42,979 bases of DNA from Anaerolineales bacterium (GTDB taxonomy: Bacteria; Chloroflexota; Anaerolineae; Anaerolineales; UBA6668). The notes under the pieces are model-generated. The model did not search any database, was not told the DNA's origin, and saw only the letters and a list, made by a program, of their open reading frames with translations. Shown here in pieces: positions 6,317 through 38,134 of this stretch (positions are counted from its first letter, which is position 1; every line of letters starts with the position of its first letter). The DNA lies in the NCBI GenBank assembly GCA_020630175.1, contig JAHDBW010000014.1:1-42979 (forward strand), in the 5' to 3' direction. Both the position numbers and the translations under genes were made by a program.

Positions 6317-6340
6317 GCGGCCTGAGCCTTTAAAAAGGAA

Positions 6341-6364
6341 AAGCCACTCTGTGAAGAGTGGCTT
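6341..6364 (-). terminator. Terminator of tRNA-Met
   Basis: A perfect 10-bp stem, AAGCCACTCT (6341-6350) with AGAGTGGCTT (6355-6364), has a 4-nt loop. On minus it is followed by TTCCTTTTT. It begins 3 nt after the 3' end of the tRNA. Confidence 0.8.
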
Positions 6365-6367
6365 GAG

Positions 6368-6439
6368 TGGCGAGGGCGGGATTTGAACCCGCGACCTACG
6401 GCTTATGAGTCCGCAGCTCTACCACTGAGCTACCTCGCC
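6368..6439 (-). tRNA. tRNA-Met (CAT anticodon)
   Basis: The sequence folds as a full cloverleaf on minus: a 7-bp acceptor GGCGAGG/CCTCGCC, D arm GCTC...GAGC, a T arm GCGGG/CCCGC with loop TTCAAAT, and anticodon loop CTCATAA giving CAT. The first acceptor pair is intact, so it is not an initiator tRNA; tRNA-Ile2 (lysidine-modified CAT) is the alternative. The inner pair of the anticodon stem is A-G, which is unusual. CCA is not encoded. Confidence 0.9.
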
Positions 6440-15260: not shown

Positions 15261-15761
15261 CTAGGATGCTGGGCACTCGTAGTGGCCCCACATAATTGTG
15301 CCGTCCATTGGCATGCCATTGTTTTGGGTTGGGTGGTTCACTTGTACGTGAAGGATGCCCCATTGCAATGGTTTGATTGTGATTGTGCCCATCCCATCAT
15401 AGGTTGGGATCGTGACTTCGCCGTTGGTTGCACGGTTGAGCGTTGCAACGTTGGTGAATGCCATCAATTCGCCTTTGGCGAGATATAGTTTGACGCCGTT
15501 ACCAGCGTCTAGGAATGCAACAACAGGTGTGTTACAGGTGCTGTGCAAGCGCATGCTGGTGTTGTCAGTGTAAACTGCGCCAGCTTGAACGCGGCGAACG
15601 TCGACACCGTTATACATGCGTGCATTTGGGTCGCAGTCGTGGCCGTCTGGGCCAGAACCGGCAGCAAATGTGTTTGGCAATGCGCCGAACATCAAAACAA
15701 ACATTACTGCGACTAACGCAGCCAACTTAATTGTCCCTTTACGGGTCAGTGAGAAAGCCAT
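15261..15761 (-). CDS. Small secreted protein of unknown function, copy 1
   Basis: This 166-residue protein has a clear signal peptide: basic start MAFSLTRKGTIK, a hydrophobic core at about 12-27 and likely cleavage after FAA at 34. The mature part is about 130 residues, predicted mostly beta, with three cysteines (43, 76, 163) and a His/Trp-containing C-terminus (IMWGHYECPAS). I do not recognise the family. The start is supported by GGAG 8 nt upstream. The gene ends with several in-frame or nearby stop codons (TAG repeats around 15243-15260). Its twin at 16759-17259 encodes an identical protein, which suggests selection for dosage or recent gene conversion. Confidence 0.85.
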   Translation of the reverse strand: MAFSLTRKGTIKLAALVAVMFVLMFGALPNTFAAGSGPDGHDCDPNARMYNGVDVRRVQAGAVYTDNTSMRLHSTCNTPVVAFLDAGNGVKLYLAKGELMAFTNVATLNRATNGEVTIPTYDGMGTITIKPLQWGILHVQVNHPTQNNGMPMDGTIMWGHYECPAS

Positions 15762-16758: not shown

Positions 16759-17259
16759 CTAGGATGCTGGGCACTCGTAGTGGCCCCACATAATTGTGCC
16801 GTCCATTGGCATGCCATTGTTTTGGGTTGGGTGGTTCACTTGTACGTGAAGGATGCCCCATTGCAATGGTTTGATTGTGATTGTGCCCATCCCATCATAG
16901 GTTGGGATCGTGACTTCGCCGTTGGTTGCACGGTTGAGCGTTGCAACGTTGGTGAATGCCATCAATTCGCCTTTGGCGAGATATAGTTTGACGCCGTTAC
17001 CAGCGTCTAGGAATGCAACAACAGGTGTGTTACAGGTGCTGTGCAAGCGCATGCTGGTGTTGTCAGTGTAAACTGCGCCAGCTTGAACGCGGCGAACGTC
17101 GACACCGTTATACATGCGTGCATTTGGGTCGCAGTCGTGGCCGTCTGGGCCAGAACCGGCAGCAAATGTGTTTGGCAATGCGCCGAACATCAAAACAAAC
17201 ATTACTGCGACTAACGCAGCCAACTTAATTGTCCCTTTACGGGTCAGTGAGAAAGCCAT
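16759..17259 (-). CDS. Small secreted protein of unknown function, copy 2
   Basis: This encodes exactly the same 166-residue secreted protein as 15261-15761, with the same ribosome site and terminator. Because the distal upstream region (beyond 17426) differs from that of copy 1, the two genes may be expressed under different conditions while making the same product. It is divergent from the ABC exporter gene that begins near 17777. Function unknown; extracellular or cell-surface location is inferred from the signal peptide. Confidence 0.85.
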   Translation of the reverse strand: MAFSLTRKGTIKLAALVAVMFVLMFGALPNTFAAGSGPDGHDCDPNARMYNGVDVRRVQAGAVYTDNTSMRLHSTCNTPVVAFLDAGNGVKLYLAKGELMAFTNVATLNRATNGEVTIPTYDGMGTITIKPLQWGILHVQVNHPTQNNGMPMDGTIMWGHYECPAS

Positions 17260-31550: not shown

Positions 31551-34500
31551 CTAGTGCTGCTTATTGAACTTACGATGTAAGAATAAGCTTGCACCAGTCC
31601 CAACGATAACCACGAAGAGTAGGAGGAACCATTGTCCGCTTGCGAACGTTTCTTGGCCCGTTTCTGGAATACGTAGTGCGGCAACAGTTGTGCGAACTTC
31701 GTTAGATGTTGCACCACCGGCGCTGCTAGAAAGCGTTGCCGTGTTACGAATGATTGTTCCCGTTGGCGTGCCGGCTTTGATGCGTGCGGTCACACGTACT
31801 GTAAAGCGTTCTCCGGCAGCGACTGTGCCGCCATTGGCTGTTAGCACGTGGTTTGCAGCGTCGTAAGCGACTGTGCCACGGGTTGAGGTTGCACTAATGT
31901 ATTCAGTTTCTGCAGCCAGCCGATCTTGGACGACAACGTCTGTAATCGCGGCTGAGTTTTGATTGACGAATGTAATTTCGTAGATTAGCTCTGTACCGGC
32001 TTGCTCTGCGTTCACGCTGGTGCCCACGTTGCCGCCGCTAATCACTTGTTTGTTGAGCGTTGGTGCACTGAGATTGACACCGGCCACTTGGGCTGGAATT
32101 GGTGTTGCTGTCGGTGCGGGTACTGGTGTTGCGGTTGGGGCAGGCGTTTCAATGCTCAACCCAGCGTCTACATCAGAGATGCTATCGCCAGAGCGCAATT
32201 CAATCCCCACGCGGCCCCGATTGTCCACGTCACTATCGATGCTATCATCGCCGCCTTGATTGGCCGGACTAAATGCTTCTTGGTTTGGTAGGTTTGCAAC
32301 CACTTGTACGCTGTAGTTACCAGGGCGCAGGTTGGCAAATTCATAATTGCCAGCGCCATCGGTGCGCGTTGTGGCGAGTACGCCGCCATCACTGTCTAGC
32401 AAGCGCACTTCATAGTTCCCGAGCACCGTGTCGGCATTTCGGAAGATCCCGTCGCGATCTGCATCGCGGAAGACCGTGCCACGGAAGCTTGAAGGGCGGT
32501 AGAAACCACTATCAATGTTGCTTTCTGTTTCGCCTGAGTCTAGGTTGATCAGGTCAGTTTGCCCGTTAGATGGGTCCACATCGCTATCTTCTGTATCATC
32601 ACCACCACGATCTTTTAGCGTGAAGGTGTAACCGTCGCGCGTTTCAAAGCGGACAAAGTAGTCGCCAGGTGTGACGTTGCTGAAGCTGTAGCTGCCGTCT
32701 GCGCTAGTGTTGGTGCTGGCAACAATGCTGCCGTCTGGCCGAACCAATCGGACAACAATATCTTCTAAGCTCGGTTCGCCGGTGTCGCGAATGCCGTCTG
32801 CATCGCGGTCATCAAATGCCACGCCGCGAATGGTGCTTGGCAGTACCAGCCCCGCATCCACATCATCCACGCCTTGGCCTGAGTTTACAGAGAATTCTTC
32901 TGTTACCCCGTTGCTTGGGTCAGCATCGCTGTCGCGGCTGTCATCGTTCCCCGCATTGCGGGTGGTAATTTCAAAGCCTGCTGGCGTGCGGAAGCGCACA
33001 AAGTAGCCTGCTGGCGCAACGTTTTCAAAGGCATAGCGGCCAGAGGAGTCGGTTGTGGTGGTTTCCACAATGTCACCATCTTCGTTGAGCAATTCAACTG
33101 TGACGTTGCTAACTGGATCTTCGCCAATTTCACGCACGCCGTTAGCGTTCGCATCATTGAATACGCGCCCGTTGACGCTTGCAACGCGGATTAGCCCCGC
33201 ATCTTCATCGTCATTGAATTCGCCATTACGGACCACAACGTTGTTGATTTTGCCCGTGTCTTGGTCAACATCACTGTCTAAGTTGTCTTGATCGCCTTGG
33301 CGCGGTTCTACAAAGCTGTACCCGGTTGGCGCCGTGAACTTGAGCATATACGTCCCAGCGACTAATTCGGTGAAGATATATTCGCCGTTGTCGTCGGTAA
33401 TGGTCTGTTGCACCATGTCGCCATCATCATCTAGCAACATGACGACAACGTTATCGACCCCAGGTTCTGATGGATCTTGGATGCCATCACCGTCTAGGTC
33501 TTCCCAAACAAAATCACCGAGTGATGTTGCGGGTACTTCGACGATTGCAGAGTCGGTATCTGTTACTGGGTCATCTAGCACGGTGCCATCGCCAGTGGTT
33601 GGTGTCCCTGTTAGTGTGGCGGTGTTGGTGATCTGATTATTGTTTGAGTCGTTATCTTCAGTGAGCCAATCTGCTTCAATTGGCGTTTGTAGTGCATAAG
33701 TGACCGATGCACCCGGTGCCAACGGCACGCCTTCAAGAACTTCTGTTGAAATATCAACGTCTAGATCCAAGAGTGGATCATCAAAGGAAAGGGTGGTGAA
33801 GTGCGTGTTACCGGTATTACTAATGCGGAAACAGTAGGTCACGGTGTCACCAATTTGGGCGGTGAGCGTTGCGCTACCTGGGCAGTCACTAGCATCGCCA
33901 CCACCAGCGCGAACCGTTTTTTCAAGGGTCAGCTCTGGGTTGTCAATAATCACACCGGCTCCTAATGGCGCTGGTGTAGCATCTTGTGTAATGGTGACTG
34001 GCGTTGTTTCGCCACTATCTGGGTCTACGTCACTGTCAATGTCATCATCGTCACCTTGGTCTTGTGGACTAAAGCGTGAGTCGGCTGGACCTTCTACGCG
34101 AACTGCGTACTCACCGGCTGGTAAATTGTCGAAGGTGTAATCGCCATTGCTATCGGTGACGGTTGTATCGACAACGTTTCCGTCGCCGTCTAGCAGCGTT
34201 ACTTGAATTTCTTCTAGGCCGTCTTCGCCAGTTTCACGAATGCCATCGGCGTCTGTGTCGTTGAAGACAAAGCCGTCTAGGCTAACGGTGAGGTCTACAT
34301 CAACAACGGCGCTGTCTTCATCTTCAACTGGTGTTTCTGATGTTGATGTGCCGTCTGGGTCTGAGACTTTGCCGGTCACTGTTGCGACGTTGGTGATTTT
34401 TGTGTCGTCAGCGTCATTGTCTGCGGTGAGCAACGCTTCAGTAAGCTGTACGGTTTGGGCGTAGCTTACGTTGCCGGTTGGGGCAAGCGCTGCGCCGTCT

Positions 34501-37421
34501 AGGCCTTCAGCGGTGATGTCTATTTCTACATCTAATAACGTGTCGATTAGGGTTAGATCAGTGAGATAGGTATTGCCTGTATTTTGAATGACAAAACAGA
34601 AGGTCACTGTATCCCCCACACGGGCGTTGATGTTGCCTTCACCCGGACAGGCATCAGATGTTGCGGCGCTGTCGATGACGGTTTTTGTAAGTTGCACAGC
34701 AGGTGCTTGCGCGAAAATGCCAGCGTCTACGGTTAAGTCTTCTTCGCCGTCTGTCAGAATAATATCGGCAGTTTGGCCAGTTTCAGGATCTACATCACTG
34801 TCTAGGGCGTCATCTGCGCCTTGGTCTTGCGGACTGAAGAAGTTGTTGTCTGGCAAGCTAAAGCGAACGCGATAGGTGGCTGGTGCCAGATCCGTGAAGC
34901 TGTACTTCCCAAGATCGCTGGTTGTCGTGGTTGCGGCAACTTCGCCATCGGCATCGAGCAAGTCGACAGTGATGTTGGCAACCCCAGGTTCACCGTCGTC
35001 CATTAGGCCATTCTCGTTTAGATCAAGGAAGACCATATCACCAAGTGAGGCGCCAATTGAGTCTAAGCCGAAGTTTGCATCGTCAATTGCTTGGCCAGCG
35101 GTGAGTTCTACAGTCGTGCTGTTGTCGGCTGTCTCGTCACGGTCAAAGACTGGCACAAGATTGTCCGGTAGTGAGTCTGGGTCTACATTGATGGTGTAGT
35201 TGCCTTCTGGCAAGTTTTCAAAGGTATAGGTGCCATCGGCGTTGGTGGTTGTGCTATCCAGAATGTTATCGTCTTCATCTAGCAAGATTACGCGGATGCC
35301 GTCTAGTGCGGTGTCACCTTCATCAAATGCGGCGTCACCGTTTGCGTCTTCTACAACGCTACCGGCAATTGATCCGGTTTGGCGATAAATACCCGCATCC
35401 CACGTCAGGTCTTCTTCACCAGAGCTCAATGGAATAATTGATGTTTCGCCAGTGTCTGGGTCGGGATCACTGTCAAGTTCATCACTGGTGCCTTGGTTCA
35501 TGCTTGTGAAGCTTTCGTAGCCGTCTGGCAAGATGAATTTGAGCGTGTAGTCACCGGGGCTGAGGCTGTCCCAAAGGTAAAGGCCGTCGGCGTCGGTGGT
35601 TTGCGTGTCTAGTAATTCGCCGCTGCTGCGATAGAGCTCAACGGTTACATCGGCAACGCCCGGTTCGCCTTCATCTTGGACACCGTTTGCATTGCGGTCT
35701 TCCCAAACAAAGTTCCCGAGTTGGGCAGGTAGCCCATCACCAAGCACACCGGCATCCCATTTCAAATTGGTAAGGCCTTCTTCTTCAATGGTGAAGATTT
35801 CTGTGCGGCCAGTTGTTGGATCTGCGTCGCTGTCGCGGGAGTCACTATCTGGCTGATCATCTGTTTGGTTTGGCTGGGTAAAACCGTCAAAGCCGGTTGG
35901 CAAATCAAATTCTAAGAAGTAATCGCCTGGGATTAGGTCATCAAAGATGTAGAAGCCATTTGCATCGGTGAGCGTTTCGCTCAGCAGTGTGCCATCTGGC
36001 TGATAGATTTTTACGGTTGCGTTGACAACACCAAGCTCGAAAGCGTCTTGAATGCCGTTGGCGTTGGTATCGCGCCAGACGTAGTCACCCACTACACCCG
36101 GAATAACACCAACATAGTTGCTAGCGTCAGAGCTAGAGTAGTTGATGTTGTCATCACCGGTGCCGGTGACGGTTGCCACGTTGGTGTACTGACCGCGTTG
36201 CGCTGTCCCTTCAATAGAACAGGCCACGCCAACATCAGTGTTGCTTTGACCTGGCTCTAATTTATCGATTTGGCAAACTTGCCCTTCTTGGTCATCGACA
36301 ACGGTGATGTTGTTGATGGCGACCCCACCCGTATTGCGGACGAGATAGTCCCACGTGACAGGTTGGTCAACGGCGATAATGACGCCCGGTGTTTGATCAG
36401 CGTCTTGACCGTTGGTTTGTTTTTCAATGGCGAGGAAGCCGGGTGAGCTGAGACAGTCTGATGCTTCAACGTCAACAAGCCGTTCGGTGAATTCGCCAAT
36501 CAGTGTGGCTACTGCTGTTTCTTCGTTGATTTGCCACAGAATGTTGCGATCTTCGAAGGCCTTGCCGGTTGTGCCGTAGAGTTGCCCATCATTAAAGAAG
36601 CTCAGGCCTTCCATATCTGAAATGATAGAGCCAGAGTCGGCGCGGACAAAGCTGCCAACGGTGAGCGTTTCACCATTTGTTTGGTCAAGGATTGAAAGTT
36701 GGCTTGGGCCACCGTCGCGATTTTGAATTGCGTAGAACACGCCAGTAATTGGGTCAATTGCAATGTCATCTACGTCTGGGTACCCATTTTGTGGCTGAAC
36801 TTCTACATAGTCTGCGCCATCAAATTCGCCTGCGACGAGTGCGCCACTGCCTGGATCTAAGCGAACGAGCCGATCAGCGCCGGGGACAACGCGTTCAACG
36901 CCGTATAGCCTGCCGCTGCTTACATCCCAAGAGAGGCTGTCTATATCGCGGAAGGTGTAACCGTCGCTTGCGCTACCGACATCACCGACAAACGTGAATG
37001 CACCACTTGCTAAATCGAGCGCACCAATGCGACCGGCGTCGGCGGCGTAGAGGGGGCTTGCGCCATTTCTAAAGGCGACAGCTTCAATATTGAAGGTGCC
37101 GGTATTAGGAAAGAACGTGGTGATTGAGTTGGTGTTACCGGTTGCGCGGTTGAGGAACGCGAGCGTGTCTTCGGCGTCGCTGTCTTGCACTTGGACACCA
37201 TTGTCGTCAATGTAACCATCTGAGACGGCAAAACAACGGTTCGGATTTACCGCGTTTGGATCTAATGGTTGTTTGCCCGGTGGTGTCGTGTCTTGTGAAT
37301 GGGGGGCTGCAAATACGGGAAAGCCAACGCTTATTGCGAGAATAAGCGCCAGAAAAACCGGTAGTACAGTTTTCATTCGTGTGTGTTTTCGATTAAATTC
37401 CAATACATCTAAAAAATTCAT
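31551..37421 (-). CDS. Giant SdrD_B/DUF11 surface protein with IPETG anchor
   Basis: This is a cell-surface protein of 1956 residues. Start ATG 37421 has GGAAG (37428-37432) about 6 nt upstream; TTG 37433 and ATG 37376 are alternatives. A signal peptide ends near PVFAA (about residue 42). Residues of about 45-330 look like a repeat-rich beta-propeller (DIAIDPITGVFYAI and similar). A DUF11-like domain follows, then nine SdrD_B modules (each with D-x-N/D-x-NG and DSDxDP motifs, likely Ca-binding), broken after modules 4 and 5 by two more DUF11 domains. A TPAPTATPVP linker, a last DUF11 domain, IPETG (about 1920), a hydrophobic helix and a basic tail complete it. This is a sortase-type sorting signal in an IPETG form. 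No sortase gene is in the window. Role: adhesion or envelope architecture (inferred). Confidence 0.93.
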   Translation of the reverse strand: MNFLDVLEFNRKHTRMKTVLPVFLALILAISVGFPVFAAPHSQDTTPPGKQPLDPNAVNPNRCFAVSDGYIDDNGVQVQDSDAEDTLAFLNRATGNTNSITTFFPNTGTFNIEAVAFRNGASPLYAADAGRIGALDLASGAFTFVGDVGSASDGYTFRDIDSLSWDVSSGRLYGVERVVPGADRLVRLDPGSGALVAGEFDGADYVEVQPQNGYPDVDDIAIDPITGVFYAIQNRDGGPSQLSILDQTNGETLTVGSFVRADSGSIISDMEGLSFFNDGQLYGTTGKAFEDRNILWQINEETAVATLIGEFTERLVDVEASDCLSSPGFLAIEKQTNGQDADQTPGVIIAVDQPVTWDYLVRNTGGVAINNITVVDDQEGQVCQIDKLEPGQSNTDVGVACSIEGTAQRGQYTNVATVTGTGDDNINYSSSDASNYVGVIPGVVGDYVWRDTNANGIQDAFELGVVNATVKIYQPDGTLLSETLTDANGFYIFDDLIPGDYFLEFDLPTGFDGFTQPNQTDDQPDSDSRDSDADPTTGRTEIFTIEEEGLTNLKWDAGVLGDGLPAQLGNFVWEDRNANGVQDEGEPGVADVTVELYRSSGELLDTQTTDADGLYLWDSLSPGDYTLKFILPDGYESFTSMNQGTSDELDSDPDPDTGETSIIPLSSGEEDLTWDAGIYRQTGSIAGSVVEDANGDAAFDEGDTALDGIRVILLDEDDNILDSTTTNADGTYTFENLPEGNYTINVDPDSLPDNLVPVFDRDETADNSTTVELTAGQAIDDANFGLDSIGASLGDMVFLDLNENGLMDDGEPGVANITVDLLDADGEVAATTTTSDLGKYSFTDLAPATYRVRFSLPDNNFFSPQDQGADDALDSDVDPETGQTADIILTDGEEDLTVDAGIFAQAPAVQLTKTVIDSAATSDACPGEGNINARVGDTVTFCFVIQNTGNTYLTDLTLIDTLLDVEIDITAEGLDGAALAPTGNVSYAQTVQLTEALLTADNDADDTKITNVATVTGKVSDPDGTSTSETPVEDEDSAVVDVDLTVSLDGFVFNDTDADGIRETGEDGLEEIQVTLLDGDGNVVDTTVTDSNGDYTFDNLPAGEYAVRVEGPADSRFSPQDQGDDDDIDSDVDPDSGETTPVTITQDATPAPLGAGVIIDNPELTLEKTVRAGGGDASDCPGSATLTAQIGDTVTYCFRISNTGNTHFTTLSFDDPLLDLDVDISTEVLEGVPLAPGASVTYALQTPIEADWLTEDNDSNNNQITNTATLTGTPTTGDGTVLDDPVTDTDSAIVEVPATSLGDFVWEDLDGDGIQDPSEPGVDNVVVMLLDDDGDMVQQTITDDNGEYIFTELVAGTYMLKFTAPTGYSFVEPRQGDQDNLDSDVDQDTGKINNVVVRNGEFNDDEDAGLIRVASVNGRVFNDANANGVREIGEDPVSNVTVELLNEDGDIVETTTTDSSGRYAFENVAPAGYFVRFRTPAGFEITTRNAGNDDSRDSDADPSNGVTEEFSVNSGQGVDDVDAGLVLPSTIRGVAFDDRDADGIRDTGEPSLEDIVVRLVRPDGSIVASTNTSADGSYSFSNVTPGDYFVRFETRDGYTFTLKDRGGDDTEDSDVDPSNGQTDLINLDSGETESNIDSGFYRPSSFRGTVFRDADRDGIFRNADTVLGNYEVRLLDSDGGVLATTRTDGAGNYEFANLRPGNYSVQVVANLPNQEAFSPANQGGDDSIDSDVDNRGRVGIELRSGDSISDVDAGLSIETPAPTATPVPAPTATPIPAQVAGVNLSAPTLNKQVISGGNVGTSVNAEQAGTELIYEITFVNQNSAAITDVVVQDRLAAETEYISATSTRGTVAYDAANHVLTANGGTVAAGERFTVRVTARIKAGTPTGTIIRNTATLSSSAGGATSNEVRTTVAALRIPETGQETFASGQWFLLLFVVIVGTGASLFLHRKFNKQH

Positions 37422-37561: not shown

Positions 37562-37936
37562 TGTTTCACACACTGTAATGAAACCAGATAGCCTGAATTG
37601 TGTCGATAAATTAGCTGTAAGGATATTGTTTGCAGATCGTTATAAAACTTAGCGGTTAGGTGTATAAACGATAAAAGATGTAGAAAGCGCCTATAACTGG
37701 CCGGTAATCGGGTATTTGGGTCACGCTAACGTGTTTCACGCTGTTGTAAAACAGTGATGTGATTGCTGACCTGACGCGCATGTTTTACAGGCTGTTGTGG
37801 AACATGCGCGTCTGTACAGCAAATGTTCTACAGCTTTGTAAAACATTTTGAGGTGCGCACGCTTTGTTTTACAAAATTGTGAAACAAGTCCTGATTACTA
37901 ACATGCCCTTCTCTTGTTTTACAAATTCGTGAAACA
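37562..37936. repeat. Array of six spaced palindromes TGTTTYAC-N-GTRAAACA
   Basis: Six imperfect palindromes stand in the gene-free stretch 37422-38040. Their arms are 37562-37569/37578-37585 (N8), 37732-37739/37746-37753 (N6), 37781-37788/37797-37804 (N8), 37824-37831/37838-37845 (N6), 37865-37872/37879-37886 (N6) and 37915-37922/37929-37936 (N6). The last five have centres 41-50 bp apart; the first lies 169 bp away. Arm consensus is TGTTTYAC and GTRAAACA, identical in core to the ParB site halves but with inserted central bases. The intervening sequences are unrelated. It could be an operator array for the surface protein or a replication/partition-type locus. Confidence 0.75.
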
Positions 37937-37962: not shown

Positions 37963-37971
37963 TGTGGATAA
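37963..37971 (-). promoter_or_regulatory. Perfect DnaA-box sequence
   Basis: TGTGGATAA on plus is the complement of the consensus DnaA box TTATCCACA, 27 bp beyond the last palindrome. A one-mismatch version, TGTCGATAA, lies at about 37600-37608. A single perfect 9-mer is expected by chance now and then, so only the context makes it interesting. Confidence 0.4.
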
Positions 37972-37998: not shown

Positions 37999-38031
37999 AA
38001 AACGGCGCATCATTTTGTGATGCGCCGTTTT
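37999..38031 (-). terminator. Terminator of tRNA-Sec
   Basis: AAAACGGCGCATCA (37999-38012) pairs perfectly with TGATGCGCCGTTTT (38018-38031), a 14-bp stem. On minus it is followed by a T-rich tail. It begins 9 nt after the tRNA 3' end. Confidence 0.9.
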
Positions 38032-38040
38032 GAGCTTAGG

Positions 38041-38134
38041 CGGGGAAGGATGGGAGTCGAACCCACCGCAACTTGCTTAACAACCTGCCAACGGTGTTGA
38101 AGACCGCGAGGACCACCGGGACCTAACCATCCCC
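38041..38134 (-). tRNA. selC: Selenocysteine tRNA (TCA anticodon)
   Basis: This 94-nt tRNA on minus has anticodon loop CTTCAAC, i.e. TCA reading UGA, closed by CGGT/ACCG. It has the long acceptor typical of tRNA-Sec (GGGGATGG with CCTTCCCC, eight positions, one T-T mismatch) and a 5-bp T stem GTGGG/CCCAT with loop TTCGACT. Its D stem is extended (AGGTCC/GGTCCT, one mismatch). The long variable arm (GCAGGTTG-TTAAG-CAAGTTGC) is hairpin-forming, and the discriminator is G. These features exclude an ordinary serine tRNA. It implies that the organism decodes UGA as selenocysteine; selA, selB and selD are not in this window, and I found no selenoprotein gene here. Confidence 0.88.

Follow-up and report, generated by a model that had tools for sequence, protein, structure and literature searches.

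A conserved array of spaced parS-like half-sites beside the tRNA-Sec gene in a genus of Anaerolineales

The window (the whole stretch of DNA that was analysed, 42,979 nucleotides) comes from an Anaerolineales genome, labelled here G000. Two relatives belong to the same genus, G001 (the closest one, with two strain-like variants of one MAG, contigs C146 and C205) and G002, and one to the same family (G003). The genome-wide statements for G000 (4.69 Mb) are based on pattern searches. The features discussed below are presented in Table 1. An array of palindromes is located where the original prediction placed it, between the gene of a giant surface protein of the SdrD-B/DUF11 type and tRNA-Sec. 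The start of the surface gene was read as the ATG at 37421, and the same start is kept in the relatives. About 50 bp of the leader element upstream of this gene are common to a paralogous surface-type gene which has no array; the element recurs (~82%) before that paralogue in G001 (L063 ~1080-1140) and G002 (L064 ~1318-1370), and it may be a promoter or leader RNA that these genes have in common. The tests on neighbouring genes revealed no recognised regulator, nor was a rep or par gene recognised near the array among the window genes tested. Elsewhere in the window, two 166-aa minus-strand ORFs (15261-15761 and 16759-17259), ~1.5 kb apart, share an identical stretch of at least 22 bp at the same relative position; neither has a Pfam match, and they are perhaps a duplicated gene.

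Table 1. Features of the array locus (window positions) and coordinates of the direct pair upstream of ftsZ (contig positions)
Feature	Position	Strand	Remarks
Giant surface protein	31551-37421	minus	signal-peptide-like start, 9 SdrD_B stretches, DUF11
Leader/promoter-like element upstream of surface gene	37564-37646	minus	92% in G001, 86% in G002
Palindrome 1	37732-37753		TGTTTCAC-GCTGTT-GTAAAACA; N6 centre; array kept at same place in both same-genus relatives
Palindrome 2	37781-37804		TGTTTTAC-AGGCTGTT-GTGGAACA; N8 centre
Palindrome 3	37824-37845		TGTTCTAC-AGCTTT-GTAAAACA; N6 centre
Palindrome 4	37865-37886		TGTTTTAC-AAAATT-GTGAAACA; N6 centre
Palindrome 5	37915-37936		TGTTTTAC-AAATTC-GTGAAACA; N6 centre; positional counterparts are the last palindrome in G001 and G002
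DnaA-box-like 9-mer	37963-37971	minus	TTATCCACA, perfect; 26 bp from palindrome 5
tRNA-Sec terminator-like hairpin	37999-38031	minus	14-bp stem; bounds array on one side; position kept in relatives
tRNA-Sec	38039-38134	minus	anticodon tca
ftsA-ftsZ direct pair, G001	C539:18779-18807 (L211)		
ftsA-ftsZ direct pair, G002	C324:8838-8866 (L210)		

The array of G000 comprises five palindromes of the form TGTTTYAC-N-GTRAAACA (37732-37936), three of which match exactly and two with one mismatch. The centre-to-centre distances are 50, 42, 41 and 50 bp, in agreement with the predicted spacing of 41-50 bp. None of the five is the contiguous 16-bp parS palindrome TGTTTCACGTGAAACA or a near variant of it; as had been noticed, all carry 6-8 extra central bases (N6 or N8). 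Dinucleotide shuffles of the array region gave no sites at up to one mismatch, against the five observed. Palindrome 2 is nested in a longer inverted repeat (37763-37822). The original prediction counted a sixth palindrome at 37562-37585, which was left out of the array: it has two mismatches, the nearest array site is 146 bp away, it falls inside the surface-gene leader element, and its counterpart in G001, TTTTTCATTCACTGTAATCAAACC, is not a palindrome. Looking at the ten half-sites of G000 separately, five are TGTTTTAC, three are TGTTTCAC, and TGTTCCAC and TGTTCTAC occur once each. The arms had been equated with the halves of parS: this holds only partly for G000 (3/10 are TGTTTCAC), and it holds for the consensus of the three species.

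A five-palindrome array is also found beside tRNA-Sec in G001 (both C146 and C205) and in G002, beyond the tRNA-Sec terminator, so the array is kept in both same-genus genomes, and the lack of conservation which the original prediction named as a sign of coincidence is not seen. The palindrome centres in these relatives are 5, 6 or 8 bp long and the surrounding sequence is barely alignable; in G002 the array and the surface gene are on different contigs. For five palindromes at this place in the three genomes, the expectation from shuffling is near 0. Based on 30 half-sites from the three species, the profile is T26 G30 T30 T30 T27 C18/T10 A25 C22, with the consensus TGTTTCAC and an invariant GTT in all 30 units. 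Between the two variants of G001, 3 of 80 half-site positions differ, compared with 42 of 138 in the rest of the array (p=5.6e-7), and there is no indel within the array; the palindrome centres diverge by 26%. The array is real, conserved and functional-looking, and selection acts on its half-sites; therefore, what is selected for is more likely recognition by a DNA-reading protein than an RNA hairpin. A structured RNA or a row of hairpins transcribed from the region is accordingly very improbable. Folding of either strand is indeed stronger than that of shuffled sequence (z = -6.8 and -7.3) and palindrome 2 sits within the long inverted repeat, but palindromes fold on either strand by definition, neither strand is favoured and the region has no Rfam match. 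Also, the arms are interrupted by C-A mismatches (1 and 3 on the plus strand; 2, 4 and 5 on the minus strand), while the half-site letters are kept. As a separate observation on C146 and C205 (L059, L061), the array sequence between the half-sites is ~30% divergent vs 9% in the flanking intergenic DNA, without indels.

The pattern with an N6 centre occurs at up to one mismatch at four sites in G000, all of them within the array, the fifth palindrome being the one with the N8 centre. When the centre was allowed to be 4-8 bp long, exact matching added one further place only, on C134. The motif is thus not scattered over the genome, the other sign of coincidence named in advance, and the array, being a single locus, does not show the dispersal in many genome copies of REP/BIME-type repeats. 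The N6 pattern at up to one mismatch gave isolated matches only when 98 further relatives were searched, and no array is present beside tRNA-Sec in two relatives of the same order. A GTDB-wide scan with the exact pattern returned 84 stretches, and no like array was seen among those inspected outside the genus; these held canonical parS clusters with an overlapping extra half-site, repeats of a tandem or terminator-like kind, coding sequence, single palindromes and, in Parcubacteria, spaced palindromes beside parS. The Anaerolineae matches (L083, L091, L131 and L151) turned out not to be arrays, and a viral scan gave four weak matches of one or two palindromes each and no array. Pairs with an N5 centre in Lachnospiraceae (L119 ~6330-6390, L088 ~1590-1650) were rejected, as they lie within helicase coding sequence; in these two UvrD-like helicase genes, palindromes of the TGTTTCAC type are repeated in frame and encode VSQ-VKQ units. 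No description of the motif as a known operator turned up in the literature search. The array is a new arrangement of a known half-site, present once per genome.

Concerning other bacterial groups, spaced palindromes of parS halves (N4-N8) are found in Parcubacteria/Patescibacteria (L081, L118, L121, L127, L093, L129, L150, L089), where they adjoin contiguous parS-like sites in several loci (with N4, N7 and N8 centres) and are accompanied once by a TTATCCACA box; several of these loci lie near a gene which we take to be YraN-like. This is a hint that spaced halves can accompany parS, independently of the Anaerolineales array. Many species also have a parS that a further half-site overlaps (TGTTTCACGTTTCACGTGAAACA or TGTTTCACGGTTTCACGTGAAACA), at most ~60 bp from a canonical parS, among them Lachnospiraceae and other Clostridia (L143, L148, L152, L139, L117, L122) and Streptomyces (L085, L098, L138, L154).

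Perfect contiguous parS is present in five copies in each of the three genomes of the genus. Those of G000 are on C301 and C445, two of them beside dnaN; the C445 copies lie directly before this gene. All 30 halves of these 15 copies are TGTTTCAC, which the consensus of the array half-sites matches in both sequence and orientation. The difference is at position 6, which is fixed in the parS halves, whereas in the array it is C in only 18 of 30 units and T in 10. A ParB_N search of G000 found one ParB, of ordinary domain make-up and adjoining ParA, on C419. The heptamers GTTTCAC/GTTCCAC are contained in 4 of the 10 half-sites of G000, and at least one is present in 12 of the 15 palindromes of the three species; the rest are mostly GTTTTAC/GTTTCAT. 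The ParBs of several species bind such lone heptamers, and the half-parS sites of Pseudomonas aeruginosa are mainly of these two types (PMC10419367, PMC7022226).

In each of the three species, 26-28 bp separate the 9-mer TTATCCACA from the last palindrome, and its copy beside the array is the sole exact one in the 43-kb window. Exact and one-mismatch copies are found within 440 bp on C301, ~6.6 kb from the parS cluster, which suggests that TTATCCACA is the DnaA box of the genus. The 467-aa gene beside this cluster was considered as dnaA, and Pfam gives TPR repeats; because the neighbouring gene is a TPR protein and not dnaA, the cluster is a candidate oriC only. The array itself had been proposed as a previously undescribed partition or origin-type locus. 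Such a role (as a true partition site, origin of replication or terminus, of the centromere or iteron type) would fit the parS-like halves, the array form and the DnaA box, but it is largely refuted and we consider it very unlikely. The position relative to the GC skew, a check which had been recommended, argues against it: the skew is positive over nearly the entire window and does not switch at the array. Canonical parS lies elsewhere, on C301 and, beside dnaN, on C445; the TTATCCACA cluster is on another contig, the window holding one exact box and no recognised rep or par gene near the array; and the skew breaks at a different locus, that of an Xer-like recombinase.

This locus was found in a search for TTATCCACA near TGTTTYRY, which gave, besides the array, one conserved place in G000, G001 and G002. 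It lies upstream of the gene of a 331-aa Xer-like tyrosine recombinase (L183:2881-4361, corresponding to G000:C382 ~16.4-17.9 kb; orthologues L184 and L185). It contains an everted pair of half-sites, GTGAAACATGTTTCAC, inside longer perfect palindromes of 24-32 bp whose flanks covary, further half-sites ~180 bp from this pair, a dif-like 11-6-11 inverted repeat (TTCTAACCAAA-N6-TTTGGTTAGAA), TTATCCACA 23-24 bp off, and repeated TCTAACC motifs. The layout half-site-N23-28-TGTGGATAA recurs there in all three species. The GC skew drops from ~+0.10 to ~0 at this place in the three genomes, one side being short, a break that would be expected of a terminus. Other groups are known to have Xer systems with a single recombinase and dif next to it (PMC5357621), and we regard the locus as a putative module of this kind in Anaerolineales. 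Its recombinase raises the question of whether the array could be a row of tyrosine-recombinase core sites, with arms around a centre of 6-8 bp. The 8-N5/6/8-8 geometry resembles such sites, and the Xer-like enzyme exists, with a dif-like site of its own; we nevertheless find this hardly probable, since partner sites need matching centres, whereas all the array centres differ and diverge fast between variants (26%), and the likely arms of the recombinase, TTCTAACCAAA, are unrelated to TGTTTCAC.

A second place is the ftsA-ftsZ intergenic region, where G001 and G002 have a direct pair, GTGAAACA-N13-GTGAAACA, with a 21-bp period just upstream of ftsZ (ftsA and ftsZ were named from sequence alone). 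G000, in which ftsZ was not seen, gave no exact match to the pair. We estimate that ~0.1 such pairs per genome would occur by chance, and the pair is suggestive of a real related locus. Within the genus, exact paired half-sites within 30 bp are found only in parS, the array, the Xer/dif-like locus and ftsA-ftsZ; the same-family genome G003 has one direct pair of TGTTTCAC. The resemblance to parS halves which the original prediction pointed out, and a role in chromosome biology, are strengthened by the related half-sites at the Xer/dif-like locus and by those at ftsA-ftsZ in two genomes.

The prediction had also offered an operator array for the surface protein, and an operator or enhancer array, bound by a transcription factor dedicated to the downstream minus-strand surface gene, is a possible explanation, almost as likely as the docking site for a chromosome factor described below. 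The array lies ~310-515 bp upstream of the gene, in the sole intergenic space that separates the gene from the tRNA-Sec terminator; a palindrome of 22 bp is of typical operator size, its half-sites are under selection, and the degenerate position 6 suits a protein other than ParB. The operator explanation is weakened by the distance from the array to the leader element, which is 86 bp in G000 vs ~310 bp in G001, the array keeping to the tRNA-Sec side, and by the paralogous gene, which has the leader element without any array. There is thus neither a fixed promoter distance nor, among the adjacent genes tested, a recognised linked regulator gene, findings with which a trans-acting regulator is compatible. 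The presence of half-sites at the Xer/dif-like and ftsA-ftsZ loci also counts against it, and the variable centres of 5, 6 and 8 bp would be unusual for one rigid operator-binding dimer. The upstream region of the surface gene has no sigma-54 -24/-12 site; an enhancer reading of that type was dropped, as one chance GG-N10-GC and no consensus site was found.

Our tentative preference is for a dock with several sites, used by a half-site-reading protein of the chromosome or the cell cycle; ParB in a half-parS mode is the leading candidate. A homodimeric helix-turn-helix protein would read the 8-bp unit TGTTTCAC (TGTTTYAC in G000) on double-stranded DNA, mostly as inverted pairs of units 5-8 bp apart. 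With five pairs, 31-69 bp apart, several dimers could sit side by side and form one nucleoprotein complex, and DnaA might plausibly bind the adjacent TTATCCACA box, for which a single box is weak evidence. At the Xer/dif-like locus and ftsA-ftsZ, the half-site clusters would be read by the same protein, which would therefore most likely be a trans-acting chromosome or cell-cycle factor. ParB clamp loading is understood to require adjoining parS halves, and ParB at the array would bind without being loaded as a sliding clamp. ParB is the leading candidate because the half-site is identical, one copy of ParB was found in G000 and several ParBs bind half-parS; its candidacy is unproven because position 6 is more degenerate in the array than in parS, and the predominance of GTTTCAC/GTTCCAC in the half-parS of P. 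aeruginosa also counts against it. The complex could act as a local reservoir or anchor, as a modulator of the flanking surface gene, or both. Two features count against the dock: spacers of 5, 6 and 8 bp should set the halves on different helical faces, and the ftsA-ftsZ pair is exact in only two of the three genomes.

A wider reading, which we consider unlikely, is that in this genus ParB, or a chromosome factor with the same half-site, recognises a small regulon made up of half-parS layouts other than parS, and so ties segregation to termination and division through half-site geometry. Its members would be the spaced array at tRNA-Sec, the half-site cluster which accompanies a DnaA box at the dif/Xer-like terminus locus, and the helically phased direct pair at ftsA-ftsZ. 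Why some ParBs bind half-parS is an open question, and the sites of P. aeruginosa are too numerous and scattered for a clean test. Here, a compact conserved array and two small related loci present the half-sites in spaced, everted and direct geometries, and one series of binding assays could tell purposeful use of half-parS from a look-alike regulator. The putative single-recombinase Xer/dif module of Chloroflexota at the GC-skew break can be tested independently.

Several known systems resemble the array in part. Arrayed operators of bacterial surface-protein genes consist of several ~22-bp palindromes in a long upstream region, as the array does; the array differs in that its distance to the promoter is not fixed, no regulator was recognised among the neighbouring genes tested, and its half-sites are shared with dif/xer and ftsA-ftsZ. 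VirB is a ParB-family transcription antisilencer, a ParB-fold protein acting on transcription, and its distal virS sites are, like the array, parS-like and upstream of a promoter. The array differs in having many sites vs one, the ParB_N search gave no second ParB-family protein in G000, and a tie to transcription is conjectural. Chromosomal parS of the ParABS system has the same half-site TGTTTCAC in the same inward orientation and is likewise clustered in several copies in intergenic DNA, whereas the array has 5-8 extra central bases per palindrome, a relaxed position 6 (C/T) and a place away from dnaN. The half-parS sites bound by P. aeruginosa ParB are GTTTCAC/GTTCCAC units outside the oriC parS cluster (PMC10419367, PMC7022226), as are part of the array half-sites; they are hundreds of scattered heptamers, whereas the array is a single conserved set of paired units per genome, with a few related loci.
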